Positions 3,909 through 30,226 of a stretch of DNA of 64,000 nucleotides are shown in pieces. The position numbers were made by a program, and so were the translations under genes. The notes under the pieces were generated by a model, which was given only the letters and a program-made list of their open reading frames with translations, made no database searches and was not told the origin of the DNA. The DNA is from Candidatus Bathyarchaeota archaeon (GTDB lineage Archaea; Thermoproteota; Bathyarchaeia; Bathyarchaeales; SOJC01), in contig JAOZHR010000027.1 of the NCBI GenBank assembly GCA_026014805.1, forward strand, positions 1 through 64,000. The letters are read 5' to 3'. How positions within the stretch are numbered: position 1 is the stretch's first letter; each line of letters starts with the position of its first letter.

Positions 3909-5204
3909 ATGCAAAAAGATTATGCTTCGAAAACTGTTAAATCAAAGCAACTTCATGAACGTGCCAAGCATGTTTTGCCTGCAGGCGTATCGTACTTCAT
4001 CCGCTACTTTGAGCCATACCCTTTTTATATTGATTGGGCAAAAGGGAGCAAAATAAGAGATGTAGATGGCAACATTTACATAGACTTCTGGATGGGCCAC
4101 TATACGCATATTCTGGGGCATAATCCCTCGAACATAAAAGAAGCCGTTAAGGCGCAGATTGAACGCGGAACACATTATGGTGTGTGTCATGAACTCGAAA
4201 TTGCTATGGCAGAGCAAGTGGTCAAGATGGTGCCAAGCGCTCAAATGGTACGGTTTTGCAGCTCTGGCACTGAAGCTGCAATATATGCCACTAGGCTTGC
4301 ACGTTCTTATACTGGAAAAAGCAAAATCATCAAGTTTGAGGGTGGCTGGCATGGTGGATATGACGCGTTACATTTGGCTGTTAAACCTCCTTTTGATATG
4401 CCAGAATCAGACGGCCTAACAGAAGGCGCATTGAAAGACACAATAGTTGCGCCATTCAACGACTTACAAGAAACAAAGCGAAAAATCAAAAATCAAGAAT
4501 TTGCTGCAGTTATAGTTGAGCCCGTTCTCGGTGCGGGAGGATGCATACCAGCCGATAAAGAATTTTTGAAAGGTTTGAAGGAGCTTTGCGTCCAAAAGGG
4601 CGCGTTGTTAATTTTTGATGAGATTATTACTGGGTTTAGGTTGGCGCCTGGTGGGGGTCAGCAATATTATGGTGTGATTCCTGACATTACACTACTTGGC
4701 AAGATTTTAGGAGGAGGCTTTCCAATAGGCGCAGTAGCTGGCAGAAAGGATATTATGGAAAGGATGGATCCGCTGCTTTTTGAAAGGCCCAGTTTTTCAT
4801 TTCAAGGTGGAACTTTCACTGCAAACCCCATATCGTTGAGTGCTGGATTAGCGATGCTTAGAACCTTAGAGGATGGTAAAATAATTAATAAGCTTAACAT
4901 TGAAGGAAGAAAGGTTAAAAGAGGACTTGAGGGCATTTTTGAGAGAAGCAATATTGACGCTAAAGTTCACTGTGCAGGCTCGCTGTTTCATGTGCATTTC
5001 ACCAAAGAACATGTGAAAAATACAGCCGTTGCCTTCAAAACTGATAGAAAAAAACTTGAAGAATATCACATGGCCTTAATTGAGAACGGCGTTTTCTTCT
5101 TACCCAAGAAAAATGGGGCTATAAGCAACGCTCATTCCAAAGAAGATCTAGAGAAGCTTTTGGCAGAGACTGAGAGATATGCGAAGAATTATAGCAGTAG
5201 TTAG
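3909..5204 (+). CDS. hemL: Glutamate-1-semialdehyde 2,1-aminomutase family protein (class III aminotransferase)
   Basis: 431 residues, full length for the GSA-aminomutase family of PLP enzymes, which make 5-aminolevulinate for tetrapyrroles. Visible landmarks are FCSSGTEAAIYATRLAR (phosphate-binding loop), GGWHGGYDA, IVEPVLGAGG, FDEIITGFR (Asp that contacts the PLP nitrogen) and LLGKILGGGFPIGAV with the PLP lysine at about residue 265, then GGTFTANPIS. The start ATG is at 3909. No other heme or cobamide genes are adjacent, so this could be a paralogue acting on another substrate; hemL is the best family name, not proof of the reaction. It converges on cofE with a 4-base overlap of the stops. 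Confidence 0.8.
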   Translation: MQKDYASKTVKSKQLHERAKHVLPAGVSYFIRYFEPYPFYIDWAKGSKIRDVDGNIYIDFWMGHYTHILGHNPSNIKEAVKAQIERGTHYGVCHELEIAMAEQVVKMVPSAQMVRFCSSGTEAAIYATRLARSYTGKSKIIKFEGGWHGGYDALHLAVKPPFDMPESDGLTEGALKDTIVAPFNDLQETKRKIKNQEFAAVIVEPVLGAGGCIPADKEFLKGLKELCVQKGALLIFDEIITGFRLAPGGGQQYYGVIPDITLLGKILGGGFPIGAVAGRKDIMERMDPLLFERPSFSFQGGTFTANPISLSAGLAMLRTLEDGKIINKLNIEGRKVKRGLEGIFERSNIDAKVHCAGSLFHVHFTKEHVKNTAVAFKTDRKKLEEYHMALIENGVFFLPKKNGAISNAHSKEDLEKLLAETERYAKNYSSS

Positions 5205-10022: not shown

Positions 10023-10343
10023 CTAATGTTCAAACAACTTTCTTCGAAGCGCCTTCAGCGTTCCAGAAACCGCAACAACACGAATCACTGCGCGTCTTCT
10101 ATTAATATCCGTAACAGCAGTAATAGCTGCTCTAACCATATTCAACGCCTTATGCGAGCATCTGACAATCACAATGCCTTTCTCGTTATCTCGTTTCACT
10201 AAAAACAAGGCAGTCTGACTGGCGCCAAATTCCCCAAAAAGCTGATACACCATGTCCCAAATCGCGTTCATCAAATCCTTCTCATCAATGGATTGGTCAC
10301 TATCGGCTTTTAAAGCCAAATAACGTCTTCTTACGAATCGCAG
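10023..10343 (-). CDS. rnp2: RNase P protein component 2 (Pop5/Rpp14), probable CTG start
   Basis: Subunit of archaeal RNase P, which matures tRNA 5' ends. The body (DLMNAIWDMVYQLFGEFGAS, LFLVKRDNEKGIVIVRCSH, NRRRAVIRVVAVSGTLKALR) matches Pop5/Rpp14. The first usual start codon, TTG 10319, would remove the conserved N-terminal RRRYL segment. In frame above it the sequence reads LRFVRRRYLALKAD, aligned with the MVRFKxRYL start of relatives, preceded by GGAGAGG about six bases before a CTG at 10343. I therefore place the start at CTG 10343, overlapping the end of rnp3 by 13 bases. No ATG, GTG or in-frame TTG lies between it and the upstream stop. Confidence 0.85.
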   Translation of the reverse strand: MRFVRRRYLALKADSDQSIDEKDLMNAIWDMVYQLFGEFGASQTALFLVKRDNEKGIVIVRCSHKALNMVRAAITAVTDINRRRAVIRVVAVSGTLKALRRKLFEH

Positions 10344-21654: not shown

Positions 21655-21741
21655 GGGGTCGTCGTCTAGTTAAGGTGTCTGGTCTGGAGAAGGCGTGTAT
21701 CCCAGTTCCAGAGCCTCTAGTTTGGTCTAGGATACCAGCCT
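21655..21741 (+). pseudogene. Orphan 5' half of tRNA-Pro with a D-loop insert (attL side)
   Basis: GGGGTCGTCGTCTAGTT at 21655-21671 and TGGTCTAGGATACCAGCCT at 21723-21741 are identical to the first and second parts of the 5' half of the tRNA-Pro gene at 26119. Identity ends in the anticodon loop. Between them is an insert of about 50 bases that can fold (TCTGGA pairs with TCCAGA, AGG with CCT, CTAG with CTAG). It differs from the insert of the intact gene but shares GTGTATC and CAGTTCC. I read it as the host tRNA's original 5' half, cut off by integration. Confidence 0.75.
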
Positions 21742-21935
21742 TTAGCCTTAGTAATTCTGTTGTGTTGTCTGTTTTTGGAATGGTGTTGGTGTTGGTCTTT
21801 GTAGTATTTCTTTGTTATACCCTGTGTCTCTAGCGGTTGACTTTGCTGTTTTTTCATTTTGTTTTCCTCTTGAATTTTATAGGCAACTGTCTTATTTATA
21901 TGTTCGTTTTGGTCTTATACCCTGTGTTGATGTAG

Positions 21936-22082
21936 ATGTCTAAGATTAGGTTATTTATTCGTACTCGAAAGCAGGGTTCTCGTATTGAGTCTGTTCCTTT
22001 AGAGAAGTTGGTTAAGTTGTCTGCTTTTGGTAAGAGGCGTTGGGAGTTTAAGGATGGTTGGTTGATTCTTGAAGCTATGTAA
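21936..22082 (+). CDS. Small basic protein inside the element
   Basis: 48 residues from ATG 21936. The sequence (MSKIRLFIRTRKQG, then SVPLEKLVKLSAFGKRRWEF and KDGWLILEAM) is basic and ends with a tidy beta-like segment, which looks like protein rather than chance. I do not recognise it. Its place next to the left attachment site suggests an element function such as a small DNA-binding protein, which is speculation. Confidence 0.45.
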   Translation: MSKIRLFIRTRKQGSRIESVPLEKLVKLSAFGKRRWEFKDGWLILEAM

Positions 22083-22124
22083 TTTGTTTGGTTGTGTTGC
22101 TCTACGAGCACGCACAAGATGAAA

Positions 22125-24527
22125 TCAGCACCAACTAGATTGTTGTTGAGTAATCCTCAATTGAGCATTTTCCTCAGTTGGGATATTGTGTTTTCTTTTG
22201 TGGATTATTACTACTAGTGTTACTGCTATTAGTATTAGTGCAGTTGCTACTACGAGTAGTTGTGTGATTTCGAATGTTAGAGATTGTTGGGATATTAATA
22301 TTTCTTGTATTGATTGGTTATAAGCAAAGTATAGGTAACTGTGTATGTTATTTGAGCATGATAGCAGAGTATGTGAAACTTCTTCACCATTAACCAACAC
22401 TATGTAGGGACCATCCATCAAATCTTTTGGGACACACATTCTGCAAAAACTGGTAGTGCCATTCTCACCAGTTGCAGTGAAGCTTATTGCAGTGCCATTG
22501 AATTGGAAATTAGAGATTGAGGAATTGCAGATAATTTGAACGTGCCATTCTGAGGTAGCATTGAAGTCGGAAAACACTCCCATCAAAGGATAATTGTCCT
22601 TACCATTCTCATCAATTTTATACGCTGTGTCGCCTATTCCATCACGGTTCGAGTCAACTCCAATATAGTTGCTCCAGAAGTTGCCTTCAACACCGTTGTC
22701 CCAAAAATCTGTAATGTTTGGAGTTTGCATAATTACCTGTTTGCTGTTATTTATGAAATTGTTGTGACAAAATGTGTTATTTGAAGAGTTAGAGAGGACC
22801 GTACCGTTTCGGTTGTTTACTATGTGGTTTTCGGAAATGTTGTTGTTAGAAGAGTTAAAGAGATGGATGCCGTCGATGTTGCTTGTTATGTTGTTTCCGA
22901 AAAAAGTGTTGTTGTCGCAAGATTGGTAGAGAAAGACGCCCGAGTTGTTGTTGTTAGCTATTCTGTTCCCAGAAACATGGTTGTTGCTGCACGAAGACAG
23001 CAGGCGGAGACCATATGAGTTGTTTGTTATGTTATTGCCAGAAACAATGTTGCAATCTGAAGAATCAAAGAGATAAACGCCTTCGGAGTTGTTTTCTGTT
23101 ATGTTGTTTCCAGAAATTGCGTTGTATGAAGACGAATAGAGAGAGATGCCAACATCATTGTTTGCTATGTTGTTCCAAAATATAGTGCTGTTTCTTGTGT
23201 TTGCGAGTGAGATTCCAGGATTGTTCTTTGTTAGCGTTAGATTCCTGACCCTTATGTTTGTGCAATTTACGAGGACCACATACCCAGCGTCCAATGGTAC
23301 TTCAGCGTCATGTTTGTTTATCCAATAGTATACTGGTTTTCCATCGACCAAGTTAGAAGAACCTACCCAATTAACAAACTCTGAAAGCTCATCACTTCGA
23401 AGATCAAAATTGTAGCTGTTGTTAGACATAATGTTTTGTCTCACAACATTTTTCGAGGAATCCTCAAGTTGGACACCATAGGTGTTGTTTGCTATTTTGT
23501 TTCCAGAGATAACACTGTTGGATGATGAGGAGAGGCTAATTCCATACAAATTGTGAGATAGGGTGTTGTCACTGACGTTTGCATTGACACGATTTATCCA
23601 AACGCCTTTTTGCTTGTTTGCTAAGACTGTGTTATTCGTGAGTATCAAATTAAAAATTGATGATTTGCAATAGTCTTGAGCACTGGCATATACACCGTTT
23701 CCCCAATTTTCCAATATTGTGTTAGACGAGAAATTGACATTGTAAATGTCGCTTCGGCCACCCCCACCGTATGCGAACAAACAAGCCCCATTTATACCGT
23801 TTGACGAAATAGTATTGGAAGAAAACGTAACATTGCGAATGCATCTTTTGCCCTCGCGTGGGGTGTAACTTAGTAAGTAAATTCCGTTCTCTTGGTTTTC
23901 TGAAATTATGTTGTTGGTGAAAATGATACCTGAATGTATGTCAGTGTAAGTAGTTATTCCCCCAGCTATCCCATTTTTGTTCTTTGTTATGTTGTTTTCC
24001 CGTATTAGCACGTTATTTTCGCCAAGTAGTTTTATGCCGCTTTCCGAGCAATTTGTAATTTCGCTTTTTTCGATTGTTGCAAGCTTTGGGCTATTGATGG
24101 TGATTCCGTGAATAGCGTATTCTACTTTGGTGTGCTTCAGCGTGAGCTGTTCGGTTGAGTTTCCTTTGAATTCTATTGTTTTCCAAGCTCCAGCATATGG
24201 GTCTGGCGGGTTGCTTGCAACTCTGCTTGATGTAAAAATTACTGGATTGGATTCGGTTCCTGAAGCATTCAATCCGCCTTCAACAATTAGAGAAACATTA
24301 TCATCAAAATTCACATGAACTCCAGCTTCGATGGTTAACGATGCGTTTGAGTCAATATAGGTGTCGTTAACGACTCGGTAAGTATCGACAGGCGTCCAAG
24401 TGGTGTCTGAAGTTATGTGCCCTTCAATGGATATCGTGGCGTTTGCAGAAGGGATGTGAAAGCTTAGAGAAATAACGCTTGAGATTACAAGAACTAGGAT
24501 AATCAACAATACAAGCTTTCTACTCAT
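22125..24527 (-). CDS. NosD-like right-handed beta-helix surface protein, membrane-anchored
   Basis: 800 residues. A signal peptide (residues 1-31, LVLLIILVLVISSVISLSF) is followed by a beta-helix with many repeats of about 22-24 residues of the type NNITENNSEGVYLFDSSDC, rich in Asn and Ser, as in NosD/PbH1 carbohydrate-binding or copper-delivery proteins. After a short beta domain a single membrane helix (LLVVATALILIAVTLVVI) and a basic tail anchor it. Such proteins sit on the outer face of the cell. Copper delivery is not implied. It is the largest gene of the element and probably cargo. Confidence 0.85.
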   Translation of the reverse strand: MSRKLVLLIILVLVISSVISLSFHIPSANATISIEGHITSDTTWTPVDTYRVVNDTYIDSNASLTIEAGVHVNFDDNVSLIVEGGLNASGTESNPVIFTSSRVASNPPDPYAGAWKTIEFKGNSTEQLTLKHTKVEYAIHGITINSPKLATIEKSEITNCSESGIKLLGENNVLIRENNITKNKNGIAGGITTYTDIHSGIIFTNNIISENQENGIYLLSYTPREGKRCIRNVTFSSNTISSNGINGACLFAYGGGGRSDIYNVNFSSNTILENWGNGVYASAQDYCKSSIFNLILTNNTVLANKQKGVWINRVNANVSDNTLSHNLYGISLSSSSNSVISGNKIANNTYGVQLEDSSKNVVRQNIMSNNSYNFDLRSDELSEFVNWVGSSNLVDGKPVYYWINKHDAEVPLDAGYVVLVNCTNIRVRNLTLTKNNPGISLANTRNSTIFWNNIANNDVGISLYSSSYNAISGNNITENNSEGVYLFDSSDCNIVSGNNITNNSYGLRLLSSCSNNHVSGNRIANNNNSGVFLYQSCDNNTFFGNNITSNIDGIHLFNSSNNNISENHIVNNRNGTVLSNSSNNTFCHNNFINNSKQVIMQTPNITDFWDNGVEGNFWSNYIGVDSNRDGIGDTAYKIDENGKDNYPLMGVFSDFNATSEWHVQIICNSSISNFQFNGTAISFTATGENGTTSFCRMCVPKDLMDGPYIVLVNGEEVSHTLLSCSNNIHSYLYFAYNQSIQEILISQQSLTFEITQLLVVATALILIAVTLVVIIHKRKHNIPTEENAQLRITQQQSSWC

Positions 24528-24718
24528 TTTACATCGTTAACTACATGCCCTACTTAGTTCTTAATACTTATGGGAAATGAACCATTGAATTATAGATGAA
24601 CGTGATTAGCGCATGCGTGTTCCTTTTGTTTACAGAAAGTTTTCTAGGTTGCGAGCGTCAGCAAAATCAAAGCTAAAAATCTTGCATGCATTTGCACTGG
24701 TCGCAAGAAAAGTAGTAG

Positions 24719-25052
24719 CCCTTCGCTTGGGGGAAGGGTTGGGATGGGGGGATACTCGCATACACACATCCCTTCATACCTCGTCGTTAAGGCGAAAGCA
24801 CCGAGGAAGTCGCCGCGAAAAGGGTTTGCTGTGGCGTTGGGCTTCCTTAGCCGTCATTGATAGTTTGGTGAGACTAGGTCAAGGGGGGAGTCCGCTTGCG
24901 GGGGGATCCTTCCGATGTCTCACGTGTAAAGGTTACAAATACCGAATCTCTATGCTGACCTCAGTCAGCAGTTGTAAGCGCTTAATAGACTGAGTATTGG
25001 AACAATGGTTTGGGTGAGGGCGGGAGGGTGGGAGCAAGGCGAACAGCCTTGC
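24719..25052. ncRNA. Hairpin-rich non-coding stretch in the element
   Basis: Six perfect or near-perfect stems lie within 334 bases: CCCTTC/GAAGGG (24719-24738), CCTCG/CGAGG (24779-24806), GTGAGAC/GTCTCAC (24868-24923) enclosing AAGG/CCTT and CCGC/GCGG (24881-24911), GCTGAC-CTCA-GTCAGC (24954-24969), and GCAAGGC-GAACA-GCCTTGC (25034-25052). It is more G/C-rich than its surroundings. A 126-codon frame crosses it but has no protein character. The whole gap 24528-25189 has no gene. It could be a structured RNA, an origin or a packaging-type signal; strand and ends are unknown. The ncRNA type is provisional. Confidence 0.45.
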
Positions 25053-25189
25053 GGAAAAGCGCGGGGGAGAGTAGTTTTTATAAGAGTTCTTAGTAGTTCT
25101 TTCCGAGAGGCGAATGGCTTCTTTCACCCTTAGGGTGTTGTGTTGACGTGAGCAATAATTTAGAGCAATTGCTTAATGACAAAAGAGGG

Positions 25190-26236
25190 TTATTTGCGTT
25201 TTCGGAATAGTTTTAGTCCTTCCATTTCGGTTATGTATTCGAATCCGTGTTCTATTAAATCGGTGGCTTCTTTAACGTTGCTTGCGGTTTTGCAGGTGTA
25301 ATCTTCTTCTTCGTTGAATGTGATTAGTTGTGTGTAGAACATTGTTGTTTCTATTTTTTTGTGTCCTAGTCTCTGTTTTACAAGTAGGATGTCTTTTGTT
25401 TTGTCGTATAACATTGTTGCGTGGTAGTGTCTTAGGTTTCTGAGTGGGATTGTTTTGAGTTGTGGTTCTTGTAGTGTTTTTGATAGTTTGTTTCTTGTGT
25501 GTCTCCATGCTTCGCCCATTGCTCTTGAGTTTGGAAATGGTTTATCTGTTGTGTATTTGTGAAGGTATTGCCTGAGCATGTCAGCGGTTTTTTGTTTTAG
25601 TTTTATTGCTCGTGAGTTGTGTCCTTTGCAGCCCTGTGCGCTGATTATGCCCTGTTGGCTGTCTATGTGTTTGCGTGTTGTGGTTGCTAGTTCGTGTCCT
25701 TCTAAGCCTGTTTCCTTTAGGATTGTAAAGATTGTCGCGTATTTGCGTGTGGCTGCTGCTATTATTTTGTCTATGTTGGCTGTGGTTGGGATTAGTGGGA
25801 TTTTGCGTTCCCATCTATAGCGTGGTGGTGTCCACTTGATTTGATGTGTTTCTGCATAGTATTTGTATGCTTGCACCATTTTGGTTTTGGTGCTGTTTGC
25901 TACTTTGTGGTTGGCGATTGTTGCCCTTACTGCTTCGGGGTTGTGAAGGTCTGTCATTTTGCTGAGTTGTCTTAGCTTGTATGATGTGTCCTTAATGGTT
26001 GATTCTCCTAGTCCTCTGTTTTTGAGGTCTATTAGAGTGTTGATAATTTCCTGTGTTCCTGAGTTTGTGGCTTTTATCAAAGTGTTTATTATCAAGTCGT
26101 CGTATTTTGATGGTTGTTGGGGTCGTCGTCTAGTTTGCGGAATCTGTGTATCTTGGTTCAGTTCCGCATAGAGTGGTCTAGGATACCAGCCTGGGGTGCT
26201 GGTGGTCCTGGGTTCAAATCCCAGCGACCCCACCAT
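25190..26236 (-). CDS. Tyrosine recombinase/integrase of the element
   Basis: Site-specific integrase. The C-terminal catalytic part shows LRNLRHYHATMLY (Arg II), RLGHKKIETTMFYTQL (His/Gly-His and nucleophile Tyr) and the beta-strand lysine in GCKGHNSRAIKLK. The first box reads KETGLEGHELATTTRKHID: the usual Arg after TG is Glu. The open frame begins at ATG 26236, but its first 25 or so residues are the reverse complement of the tRNA and are probably not native. A likely start is near the KYDDLIINTLIKATNSG segment. The gene ends at 25190. The position next to tRNA-Pro fits its target. Confidence 0.85.
   Translation of the reverse strand: MVGSLGFEPRTTSTPGWYPRPLYAELNQDTQIPQTRRRPQQPSKYDDLIINTLIKATNSGTQEIINTLIDLKNRGLGESTIKDTSYKLRQLSKMTDLHNPEAVRATIANHKVANSTKTKMVQAYKYYAETHQIKWTPPRYRWERKIPLIPTTANIDKIIAAATRKYATIFTILKETGLEGHELATTTRKHIDSQQGIISAQGCKGHNSRAIKLKQKTADMLRQYLHKYTTDKPFPNSRAMGEAWRHTRNKLSKTLQEPQLKTIPLRNLRHYHATMLYDKTKDILLVKQRLGHKKIETTMFYTQLITFNEEEDYTCKTASNVKEATDLIEHGFEYITEMEGLKLFRKRK
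26119..26232 (+). tRNA. tRNA-Pro (anticodon GGG) with a D-loop intron
   Basis: Acceptor arms GGGGTCG and CGACCCC pair fully. The anticodon stem CCAGC/GCTGG encloses CTGGGGT, giving anticodon GGG. The T-arm is CTGGG-TTCAAAT-CCCAG, A is the discriminator and CCA is encoded at 26233-26235. The D-loop is interrupted by about 39 bases after GTCTAGT. The insert folds as TCTA-GTT-TGCGGAA with TTCCGCA-TAGA, a helix-bulge-helix expected for an archaeal splicing endonuclease substrate. Exact splice sites are uncertain. The 5' half probably came with the element and the 3' half is host. Confidence 0.88.
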
Positions 26237-27728: not shown

Positions 27729-29231
27729 ATGAAACAGCTGATTCACAACGGTGTCCTCATTCCGAAAAAGCCAGAATGGCGAAAATTACATGTAACAGTG
27801 CAGGGCAACCGCGTGAACTTAACGCCAGAGCAAGAAGAAATGGCTATTGCATGGGCTAAGAAGCTTGGCACCGAATATGTCAAGGATCCTGTTTTCGTCA
27901 AAAACTTCTTCCAAGACTTTCGCAAAGCACTAGGCATAAAAGTCAAGATACCATCAGAAAACTTTGACTTTTCACTTGTAATAAAGCATGTTGAAGAGGA
28001 AAAAGCCTTCAAACTGAGTCTTACAAAGGAACAAAAAAAGAAATTGGCTGCAGAACGTAAGGCGATAAGAGAGAAAAACAAGGAAAAATATGGCTTTGCC
28101 AAAGTGGATGGCGTCAAAGTAGAAATCGGTAACTATACTGCTGAGCCCTCAAGCATTTTCATGGGGCGAGGAAAGCATCCGTTACGAGGACGTTGGAAAC
28201 ATGGCGCAGGCAAAAGCGACATAGTTCTTAACCTTTCGCCAAATGCGCCAAAGCCACCGGGTAACTGGAAAGAAATAGTGTGGCAACTAGATAATATGTG
28301 GATAGCTAAGTGGGACGATAAACTTCGGGGTAAAGAGAAATATGTGTGGCTGGCGGACTCGTCACCTTTGAAACAACGCAAAGATGTAGAAAAATTCAAC
28401 AAGGCTATTGAGCTTAGTAAAAGGATAGAAGATGTTAGAAAACATATAATGACTAATCTGGATGCTGAAGATGCTACAAGGCGCAAAATTGCCACTGTGT
28501 GTTATCTGATTGATGTTTTGAAACTGCGTGTTGGCGACGAGAAAGATGCAGACGAAGCAGACACGGTGGGTGCCACAACGTTGAGACCTGGACATGTAAA
28601 ATTCGGAAAAAATCGTGTAGTAACCTTTGACTTTTTAGGTAAAGATGCTGTTAGATGGCAAAAACGAATTCGACTGCCTGAACAGGTCATTGGCAATGTT
28701 AAGGAGTTTATGAAATCTGCCGAGTCATCGATTTTCGAAGGGGTAAGGTCAAAGAATGTTTCACTTTTTCTCGACGAGATCGTGACTGGTATTTCAAGCA
28801 AGGTCTTCAGAACCTACCACTCCTCTAAGGTAGTGGCTGATTTTCTCTACAGTTCTGATGTTTCAAAGCCGGATCCGGAGTATGAAAAGAAGCATGTTGC
28901 AACTATGGCTAATCTTGAAGCTGCTATCGTTTGTAATCATAAGAGAAAGCCTAGGAAGAACTGGAAGGAGTCTTTGGAGAAAAAGATGGAGAGATTGAAG
29001 AAACTGAAAGCTAAAGGTACTCCTAGTGCAAAGAAACGAGCTAAGATTCTTCAACGCAAGATTAAGGCTTTTCGTGATACTAGAGATTACAATCTTGGAA
29101 CTTCTTTGAAGAGTTACATTGACCCTCGCATTTACTACGGGTGGGGGCGAAAAGTAGATTTTGACTGGAAGCTTTATTATCCTAAGGCGTTACAGAAGAA
29201 GTTTTCTTGGGTGGAACGCAAAACGGATTAA
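27729..29231 (+). CDS. top1B: DNA topoisomerase IB, eukaryotic type
   Basis: 500 residues, with the N-terminal core-cap domain and C-terminal catalytic domain of eukaryotic Top1. Seen: WKEIVWQLDNMWIAKWDDKL, GDEKDADEADTVGATTLRP, FDFLGKDAVRW, FRTYHSSKVVADFL with a catalytic Arg, a coiled linker and GTSLKSYIDPRIYYGWGRK with nucleophile Tyr near residue 463. It relaxes supercoils through a 3'-phosphotyrosyl intermediate. In archaea this enzyme is known from Thaumarchaeota and relatives. Its last 4 bases overlap the convergent ParB-ASCH gene. Confidence 0.95.
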   Translation: MKQLIHNGVLIPKKPEWRKLHVTVQGNRVNLTPEQEEMAIAWAKKLGTEYVKDPVFVKNFFQDFRKALGIKVKIPSENFDFSLVIKHVEEEKAFKLSLTKEQKKKLAAERKAIREKNKEKYGFAKVDGVKVEIGNYTAEPSSIFMGRGKHPLRGRWKHGAGKSDIVLNLSPNAPKPPGNWKEIVWQLDNMWIAKWDDKLRGKEKYVWLADSSPLKQRKDVEKFNKAIELSKRIEDVRKHIMTNLDAEDATRRKIATVCYLIDVLKLRVGDEKDADEADTVGATTLRPGHVKFGKNRVVTFDFLGKDAVRWQKRIRLPEQVIGNVKEFMKSAESSIFEGVRSKNVSLFLDEIVTGISSKVFRTYHSSKVVADFLYSSDVSKPDPEYEKKHVATMANLEAAIVCNHKRKPRKNWKESLEKKMERLKKLKAKGTPSAKKRAKILQRKIKAFRDTRDYNLGTSLKSYIDPRIYYGWGRKVDFDWKLYYPKALQKKFSWVERKTD

Positions 29232-30226
29232 ATCTTTTCGAAGCGTATAATGTAGACTAATTGGTTTTCGTTCCATTCACCGTACGTCTTTTTCCAAATT
29301 TCGTTAAATTCTCCTAGCGTGAAACCTCCTTCTGCCTTGGCGTCTTCTCCGTTAAAATACTTCAATCGTTTTCTTTCAACTGAGATGATGCGTAGATCTG
29401 CGAAATGTGGTTCTAATACTGTAGCGTAGACTATTTTGCCGGTTTTTATTTTTGTATCTGGAGGGGCTATTCTTGTGGTTTGAGTTTGCAAGCCTTTTAG
29501 AACAGGGTCTCTGTTGAGTGCAGTGAAAATGAGTTCGCAAGGTTCTTCAATGACCTCTTTGACGATTTCTTCAACAGGTTTTTCTGGTTCTTCAGCAGCT
29601 TTTGCAATTACTCGACGTGCTTTTCTACCGTGAACTGGTTTGCTGGCAATTTCTTTAGCGACTTCAATTTGCCTTGTCGGTTCCTCGATTTGGCGGGTGA
29701 TTGTAAGGGCTGTACTGTAGTCAAGTTTACCAAGTTCTCGTGGCACGCCCACTTTTTCTGTCGATATAATCATTTTTTGGATTTCTACGGGTGCCTCTGT
29801 TAACCTAAGCCAGTTATTGATAGTGTCGGAGGAGACGCCGATTTTCTTTCCGATAACTTCTTTCGATGGATATTTCTCAGGGTATTTTTCTAGGAGTTGT
29901 TTACAGCAATTTCCTTTCTCTACGGCATTTAGATCTTCCCTTTGTATGTTTTCGATAAGGTTCAACTCTATTACTTGCTCATCTGTGAAGTTACGGATAA
30001 TTGCAAGAACCTTTCGCAGTCCTGCCTGTTGCGATGCACGATAGCGTCGTTCGCCTACAACAACCTCGTATTCGTCGTCTACAGGTCGGAGTATGAGTGG
30101 TTCCAGAAGACCTACTTGTTTGATGCTATCAGCAAGCTCGTTGAGCCTTTCAATGTTCATGTCAAGACGTGGATTCAGCCTATTTGGACGAATTCTGTTT
30201 AATTCGATTTGCCTTAGCTCGACCAT
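29228..30226 (-). CDS. ParB-ASCH fusion protein
   Basis: 332 residues. Residues 1-90 are a ParB/Srx nuclease-fold domain (LADSIKQVGLLEPLILRPV, VVVGERRYRASQQAGL), followed by LNLIENIQREDLNAVEKG and a helix-turn-helix (IGKKIGVSSDTINNWLRL). After a charged linker, about residues 235-332 look like an ASCH domain: LKGLQTQTTRIAP, GGFTLGEFNEIW and KKTYGEWNENQLVYIIRFE. ASCH domains are thought to bind RNA or nucleotides. ParB domains bind CTP and DNA. I know of no described role for this combination. No ParA neighbour is seen here. Confidence 0.88.
   Translation of the reverse strand: MVELRQIELNRIRPNRLNPRLDMNIERLNELADSIKQVGLLEPLILRPVDDEYEVVVGERRYRASQQAGLRKVLAIIRNFTDEQVIELNLIENIQREDLNAVEKGNCCKQLLEKYPEKYPSKEVIGKKIGVSSDTINNWLRLTEAPVEIQKMIISTEKVGVPRELGKLDYSTALTITRQIEEPTRQIEVAKEIASKPVHGRKARRVIAKAAEEPEKPVEEIVKEVIEEPCELIFTALNRDPVLKGLQTQTTRIAPPDTKIKTGKIVYATVLEPHFADLRIISVERKRLKYFNGEDAKAEGGFTLGEFNEIWKKTYGEWNENQLVYIIRFEKI

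Follow-up and report, generated by a model that had tools for sequence, protein, structure and literature searches.

The origin of non-canonical introns in archaeal tRNA genes is an open question. Transposition of tRNA introns in Thermoproteales, with gain of non-canonical introns, was reportedly described by Fujishima and co-workers in 2010 (cited in PMC4390854). In Sulfolobus, the attachment site (att) of the SSV1-type integrase overlaps the integrase reading frame, and the 3' part of the tRNA gene is used.

The closest described case is the tRNA-Thr(GGU) gene of Caldiarchaeum subterraneum, where a 1.9-kb insertion is bordered on one side by a 5' tRNA fragment and on the other by a tRNA that has an additional D-arm intron at position 24/25 (PMC3293823). 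Sugahara et al. 2012 proposed that an intron-bearing attP had integrated into an intronless attB (PMC3293823), and a 2021 review restated this model as a proposal (PMC8371274); the principle of element-delivered introns has therefore already been put forward, from this single case. The same review covers the suicidal integrases of the pTN3-like kind in Thermococcales (Cossu et al. 2017): their attB corresponds to the 5' half of a tRNA gene, the att site is internal to the integrase gene, and the recombined tRNA is expressed from the integrase promoter (PMC8371274). Furthermore, one 5'-end insertion was recorded among thaumarchaeal elements (Krupovic et al. 2019, PMC6563490). It should also be added that introns were proposed by Randau and Soll to protect tRNA genes from integration, as cited in PMC3293823 and PMC4390854.

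Here we report on a stretch of 64,000 nucleotides of Bathyarchaeia DNA (hereafter, the window), in which a tRNA-Pro(GGG) gene and an orphan copy of its 5' half lie on either side of an integrase-bearing segment. Taken as a whole, an explanation by a Bathyarchaeia element that has an intron-bearing tRNA-Pro(GGG) 5' half as its att, and that delivers the intron upon integration, appears to us highly probable.

Genomes and comparative approach

The window genome (G000) is a draft of Bathyarchaeia, and its relatives are titled Candidatus Bathyarchaeota. The whole analysis was comparative sequence work on genomes that were mostly draft assemblies. Genes for tRNA-Pro were collected with pattern searches over 163 genomes of the order; exact exons were demanded, so some genes were missed. 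Intron structure was compared across 14 introns.

Two copies of the tRNA-Pro 5' half in the window

The intact tRNA-Pro(GGG) gene, with an intron in its D-loop, is located at 26119-26235 (forward strand), and the orphan 5' half, with its own, different intron, at 21655-21741 on the same strand, joined to the host upstream flank (attL). The exons of the left copy, GGGGTCGTCGTCTAGTT at 21655-21671 and TGGTCTAGGATACCAGCCT at 21723-21741, recur identically on the right over 17 + 19 bases (26119-26135 and 26174-26192). This agreement had been pointed out in the first-pass annotation together with the difference between the two D-loop inserts, and both observations were confirmed: relative to an intronless tRNA, the orphan carries 51 extra bases vs 38 in the intact gene. 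The predicted introns span 21672-21722 (51 nt) and 26136-26174, both on the forward strand, the latter amounting to 39 nt if each 3-nt bulge is cut after its second base. Predicted splicing would leave the orphan half as CTAGTTTGGTCTAGG, identical to the intronless relatives.

The right copy is followed by the whole tRNA-Pro(GGG) 3' half, in which CCA is encoded, up to 26235 (attR), and would combine an element 5' half with a host 3' half. It is the sole complete tRNA-Pro(GGG) found in G000, where no second copy of the orphan half was found either. ARAGORN called no tRNA, as expected from the D-loop intron, and the Rfam match at the intact gene covers only the part from 26173. Both copies share the 17-mer GGTCTAGGATACCAGCC (right copy at 26175-26191, forward strand), the putative site of exchange according to the repeat search and to the comparison of genomes G008 and G066 given below. 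The window contains two exact occurrences of it; when as many as three mismatches were allowed, three matches were found vs 0.05 by chance.

The integrated element of about 4.4 kb extends between these repeats from 21742 to 26118. The conserved part of a tyrosine integrase (304 aa, 25190-26104, reverse strand) adjoins the intact tRNA, is directed away from it and has a frame without antisense interruption across the tRNA 5' half. As cargo, the element bears a gene for an 800-aa NosD/beta-helix protein (22125-24527, reverse strand). Near its left end it also has a putative 48-aa ORF (21937-22081, forward strand), the DNA of which is 86% identical in an element of genome G149. The segment shows the features of an integrative element at a tRNA gene, namely a direct repeat at both ends, an intact tRNA at one of them, an adjoining integrase and a comparable site in relatives; the element is inferred to be, or to have been, mobile. 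A candidate TATA-like sequence, TTTATTAT, occupies positions -34 to -27 of the tRNA (26085-26092, forward strand) inside integrase coding DNA, and comparable sequences are present in several members of the group; the hybrid tRNA is probably driven by a promoter supplied by the element, in line with what is described for pTN3-like insertions (PMC8371274). Outside the element, the window also encodes a eukaryotic-type topoisomerase IB beside a ParB-like protein with an ASCH domain (27729-30226).

Occupied and intronless sites in relatives

Genome G001, of the same genus, has the same host neighbours on both sides of the locus (DNA 89-93% identical to the window), with host homology reaching the repeats at both borders, and carries its own, different element between them. 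Its orphan host half, GGGGTCGTCGTCTAGCTTGGTCTAGGATACCAGCC, is intronless, and the intact tRNA beside its integrase bears an intron. At this shared locus, then, it was the element that brought the intron. The first-pass annotation had recommended a comparison with a relative, and its proposal that the element brought its own 5' half together with the intron is supported by G001.

What looks like the same locus was found in G006, of the same family, with a similar upstream flank and a piece of a DUF401 gene about 3 kb downstream, and with no such element on the 5' side. The tRNA-Pro gene of G006 has no intron in the D-loop but has one in the anticodon loop. The G001 orphan and the D-loop-intronless G006 gene together indicate that the ancestral host gene was without a D-loop intron. 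Neither of the outcomes regarded beforehand as contradicting delivery by the element was seen, namely an uninterrupted site with the right-hand intron or two separate tRNA-Pro genes in relatives lacking an integrase.

Two separate tRNA-Pro genes, or a tandem duplication, could in principle also produce a direct repeat of a tRNA half with no integration involved. The chance of this is in our estimation negligible: the orphan ends exactly at the shared block, the integrase stands directly beside the repeat, and in G001 both host flanks are homologous although the element they enclose is another one.

Two further genomes inform on the position of exchange. In G008, an intronless orphan is found on contig C235, and an intron-bearing intact tRNA-Pro with an integrase on C88. 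In G066, the gene concerned is tRNA-Arg(GCG), with an intronless orphan at L071:11196, an intron-bearing intact tRNA at L071:14633 and an adjoining integrase that is 53% identical. In both cases the two copies differ in a base, the orphan GGTTTAGG standing against GGTCTAGG in the intact copy of G008, and GAATC against GGATC in G066. From these differences the exchange is placed to the right of the differing bases, roughly within TAGGATACCAGCC and 3' of the intron, and therefore the intron travels with the integrase side. The original suggestion of integration at the anticodon side was right as to integration into the tRNA gene, but the exchange falls in the D-stem/anticodon-stem block and not at the anticodon itself.

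Considered alone, the window would also be compatible with an exchange within the 5' exon, which at 17 bases is as identical between the copies as the 3' block; the left intron would then be the element's and the right one the host's. We hold this to be very unlikely, since the base differences in G008 and G066 put the exchange 3' of the intron and since the integrase-linked introns of G008 and G090 closely resemble the right intron, the integrases of these two genomes being likewise closely related to that of the window. Delivery of the intron from the integrase side remains our reading. As the window orphan is itself intron-bearing, intron gain is invisible in the window genome alone and rests on G001, G008 and G066, in each of which the intron-bearing attP and intronless attB of the model of Sugahara et al. 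2012 were found. At the level of sequence comparison, it is shown that the element side brings the intron, that the ancestral host site was intronless, and that this recurs in other genomes and with a second tRNA.

Predicted structure and splicing of the introns

The majority of the 14 introns have a fold in which exon TCTAG is paired with CTAGA close to the intron 3' end, a three-base bulge stands on either side of this exon-intron helix, and the intron forms a hairpin of 6-9 bp. In the intact tRNA of the window, the hairpin is GCGGAA/TTCCGC, the loop motif GTATC and the H' strand TAGA. Across the alignment, 68 of 78 cells in the hairpin are paired, as compared to 42.7 after shuffling (p about 2e-5; 1e-4 on a reduced set). 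The predicted fold is hence that of a bulge-helix-bulge, with two 3-nt bulges, a short helix, boundaries within the bulges and covariation in the hairpin; it is assigned to the relaxed (HBh') type because an outer exon helix is not evident. The intron of G149 and that of the window orphan fit the consensus fold more poorly. G000 has two splicing-endonuclease genes of family PF01974, and we infer that the D-loop introns are spliced by the host endonuclease.

The hairpin loop region contains GTATC in all 14 introns (once as GTGTC and twice as GTATA). Of the two cores that the first-pass annotation had noticed in both window inserts, GTGTATC is a real one and conserved in all introns of this type; CAGTTCC is given no special weight here. 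Exactly 27 bases separate the loop 7-mer with GTATC from the exon 7-mer with GATAC, which together form the inverted repeat GGTATCC/GGATACC. A shuffle test of GTATC:GATAC gave p 0.013, a weak result as the partners hardly vary. The pair may represent a contact between loop and exon in the precursor, or a DNA site. We also considered that it could be a mere by-product of a conserved peptide (I-P) encoded on the other strand; in G129 and G155, however, both sides have changed jointly to GTATA/TATAC, which favours base pairing.

The fixed arrangement of GGTATCC, 27 bases and GGATACC could be a protein site, and the whole insert might accordingly be seen as a binding site of the integrase that disables the tRNA rather than as an intron. 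The covariation in the hairpin and the exon-intron helix nevertheless fit an RNA intron, integrase-free tRNAs keep the same structure, and the genome yielded no second complete tRNA-Pro(GGG), so that we regard this possibility as highly improbable. We therefore continue to treat the inserts as introns.

The integrase and its clade

The window integrase matches the Pfam family Phage_integrase (PF00589; E 2e-13), and its profile matches XerA and XerC/D-like structures. The regions of the Lys, second Arg, His and Tyr residues align. The first catalytic arginine is absent, TGLEGHEL vs GLRVSEL (usual form TGLRxxEL), in the window integrase and in the clade alignment, and RNLRH or RNLRN is found in the clade where HxLRH is usual. 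The protein is by sequence a homologue of tyrosine recombinases; this does not prove activity, which is not assured with the usual first arginine missing.

Relatives of this integrase are common, occurring in 152 of 201 relatives searched. Twelve members are set apart by profile score (E <=1e-121 vs 1e-92 for the next), and these integrases associated with 5' halves form one group with support of 100/100 in a midpoint-rooted tree. All twelve stand divergently against the 5' end of a tRNA gene: Pro(GGG), Arg(GCG), Gly(GCC) or Val(CAC). D-loop introns accompany all Pro members, one of three Arg members and no Gly or Val member. When 398 genomes were drawn evenly from the phylum, no clade member was found outside the class, and no integrase match there attained the clade's scores. 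No integrase relatives were found in viral contigs, and a search of genome contigs returned only the own contig of G008 and one distant match.

Several relatives outside the clade occur in other arrangements, next to tRNA-Thr, tRNA-Ala or the gene for RNase P RNA. A sister integrase group was observed directly beside the archaeal RNase P RNA gene at L045, L047, L049, L057, L060 and L143; this recurrence in several genomes suggests that gene as its integration site.

Intron-bearing genes with and without integrases

The pattern searches returned 13 intact tRNA-Pro genes with a D-loop insert and 28 intronless matches, three of the latter being orphan halves. The insert of G109, with neither the motif nor an integrase, was dropped from the intron type. 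An integrase directly 5' and divergent is present at 7 of the 12 intact tRNA-Pro genes with the intron type and at 0 of the 25 intact intronless ones (Fisher exact test, calculated by hand, p about 8e-5). One further intron-bearing tRNA-Pro, in G128, has only the 5' end of an integrase beside it; this locus (L123, contig C177) has the appearance of a decaying element.

Introns of the element type were found without any integrase in G113, G124, G142 and G129. It could be argued from these four intact loci that the introns are old host introns, captured together with host tRNA halves, and that the two copies diverged after integration, the more so as three of the four (G113, G124, G142) are at the ancestral locus, where the upstream DNA is the host neighbourhood common to intronless relatives and the upstream RIO gene is conserved. 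Most relatives at this locus are, however, without a D-loop intron (G018, G106, G079, G115, G104), including G104 of the same genus as the intron-bearing G113, and the orphan host halves of G001, G008 and G066 are intronless. Moreover, the most similar introns span families and include element-borne copies: the G113 tRNA with its intron is 93% identical to the element-borne tRNA of G001, from another family, and that of G142 is 91% identical to the tRNA of G090. An old host origin is, in our judgement, unlikely.

We prefer to see the intron of the window orphan half, and those of G113, G124 and G142, as probable remnants of an earlier element. The window orphan half combines a host flank with an intron of the element type, by which the host half was probably marked by such an earlier insertion. 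The orphan had been interpreted at first as a host half with the host's own intron; it does lie on the host flank, but its intron is of the element type and probably not an old host intron. Most economically, the host gene would have kept the intron of a first element and later received a second element with a different intron; the earlier element was perhaps lost by recombination within the 15-base 5' exon.

Several other arrangements were recorded. Tandem elements occur in G149 (L065, contig C119), with an intron-bearing att at 5128, a second at 10141 and an integrase before each. In G155 (L073) and G141 (L068), integrases or pieces of them flank the tRNA-Pro at both its 5' and 3' ends. An insert in the anticodon loop is present in some tRNA-Pro genes without a D-loop intron (L098, L099, L103, L109, L110, L112) and in none of those with one. 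Finally, G004 has an intronless tRNA-Pro 5' half (L120:10480) with no matching intact copy or integrase nearby, possibly a rearranged insertion.

Antisense overlap with the integrase frame

Where it could be traced in the members, the integrase frame extends antisense across the tRNA half. The length of the insert, relative to the intronless gene, is divisible by three in every lineage except that of the 38-base insert (window, G008, G090); in the window and in G090 there seems to be compensation for this at another place. The antisense frame beginning AGIL is stop-free in all introns of multiple-of-three length, other frames having mostly stops (product of chances about 2e-3 over 8 distinct introns), and a peptide of the form AGILD-(H/Q)-S...IP...TRRRP recurs.

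When the element ends are joined in silico, the left end of the window element (21742-21860, reverse strand) continues in a stop-free frame through the att site into the integrase, with an ATG 117 bases before the core. The circle of element 2 of G149 likewise has a stop-free frame with a start in the left end and a leader similar to that of the window. In G001 the frame starts at the junction, and in G008 only by a TTG inside; both are without a leader of the window type. We read this as moderately favouring an att site within the integrase gene, of the kind found in suicidal integrases, and the intron may also code for integrase on the other strand. Tentatively, and with somewhat less than even confidence, we propose a dual-purpose intron, spliced from the tRNA on one strand and selected on the element as in-frame integrase coding sequence on the other. 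If this is true, the integrase family would continually supply archaeal tRNA genes with new D-loop introns.

Proposed mechanism and comparison with known systems

In the proposed mechanism, the att site of the element would carry a tRNA-Pro(GGG) 5' half with a D-loop intron and probably a promoter. Recombination of this site with the host gene by the tyrosine integrase would take place in the short D-stem/anticodon-stem block 3' of the intron, and the host 5' half would remain at the opposite end of the element. The functional tRNA would then consist of an element 5' half and a host 3' half and would have to be spliced by the host endonuclease.

No report of the family-wide pattern, the left-over introns or the overlap with the integrase frame was found in a search limited to open-access papers. 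What is new here is repeated delivery by a defined group of integrases, into two tRNA species, with before-and-after states within a genus and with left-over introns. This group offers a ready system for studying the origin of introns, the splicing of newly arrived ones and the cost of a hybrid tRNA gene. Simple protection by introns is disfavoured, since the window host half, if it already bore its intron as we suppose, was used all the same.

Intron transposition in Thermoproteales resembles our case in the gain of non-canonical archaeal tRNA introns, but is not tied to an integrative element. As compared to the SSV1-type integrase, the 5' half of the tRNA is used here and the catalytic part of the integrase stays whole after integration. 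The pTN3-like integrases, as described in the review, resemble the present group in having the 5' half of the tRNA as att; no introns are mentioned for them there (PMC8371274), and the group here belongs to Bathyarchaeia. The Caldiarchaeum case is like the window in its succession of 5' tRNA fragment, insertion and tRNA with a D-arm intron, but concerns one population and one tRNA, with a recombinase recognised only by a classifier and read as pNOB8-like. In contrast, the Bathyarchaeia data come from a defined clade of integrases and extend over several genomes and two tRNAs; they further include left-over introns, a common intron structure and a frame that overlaps the integrase.
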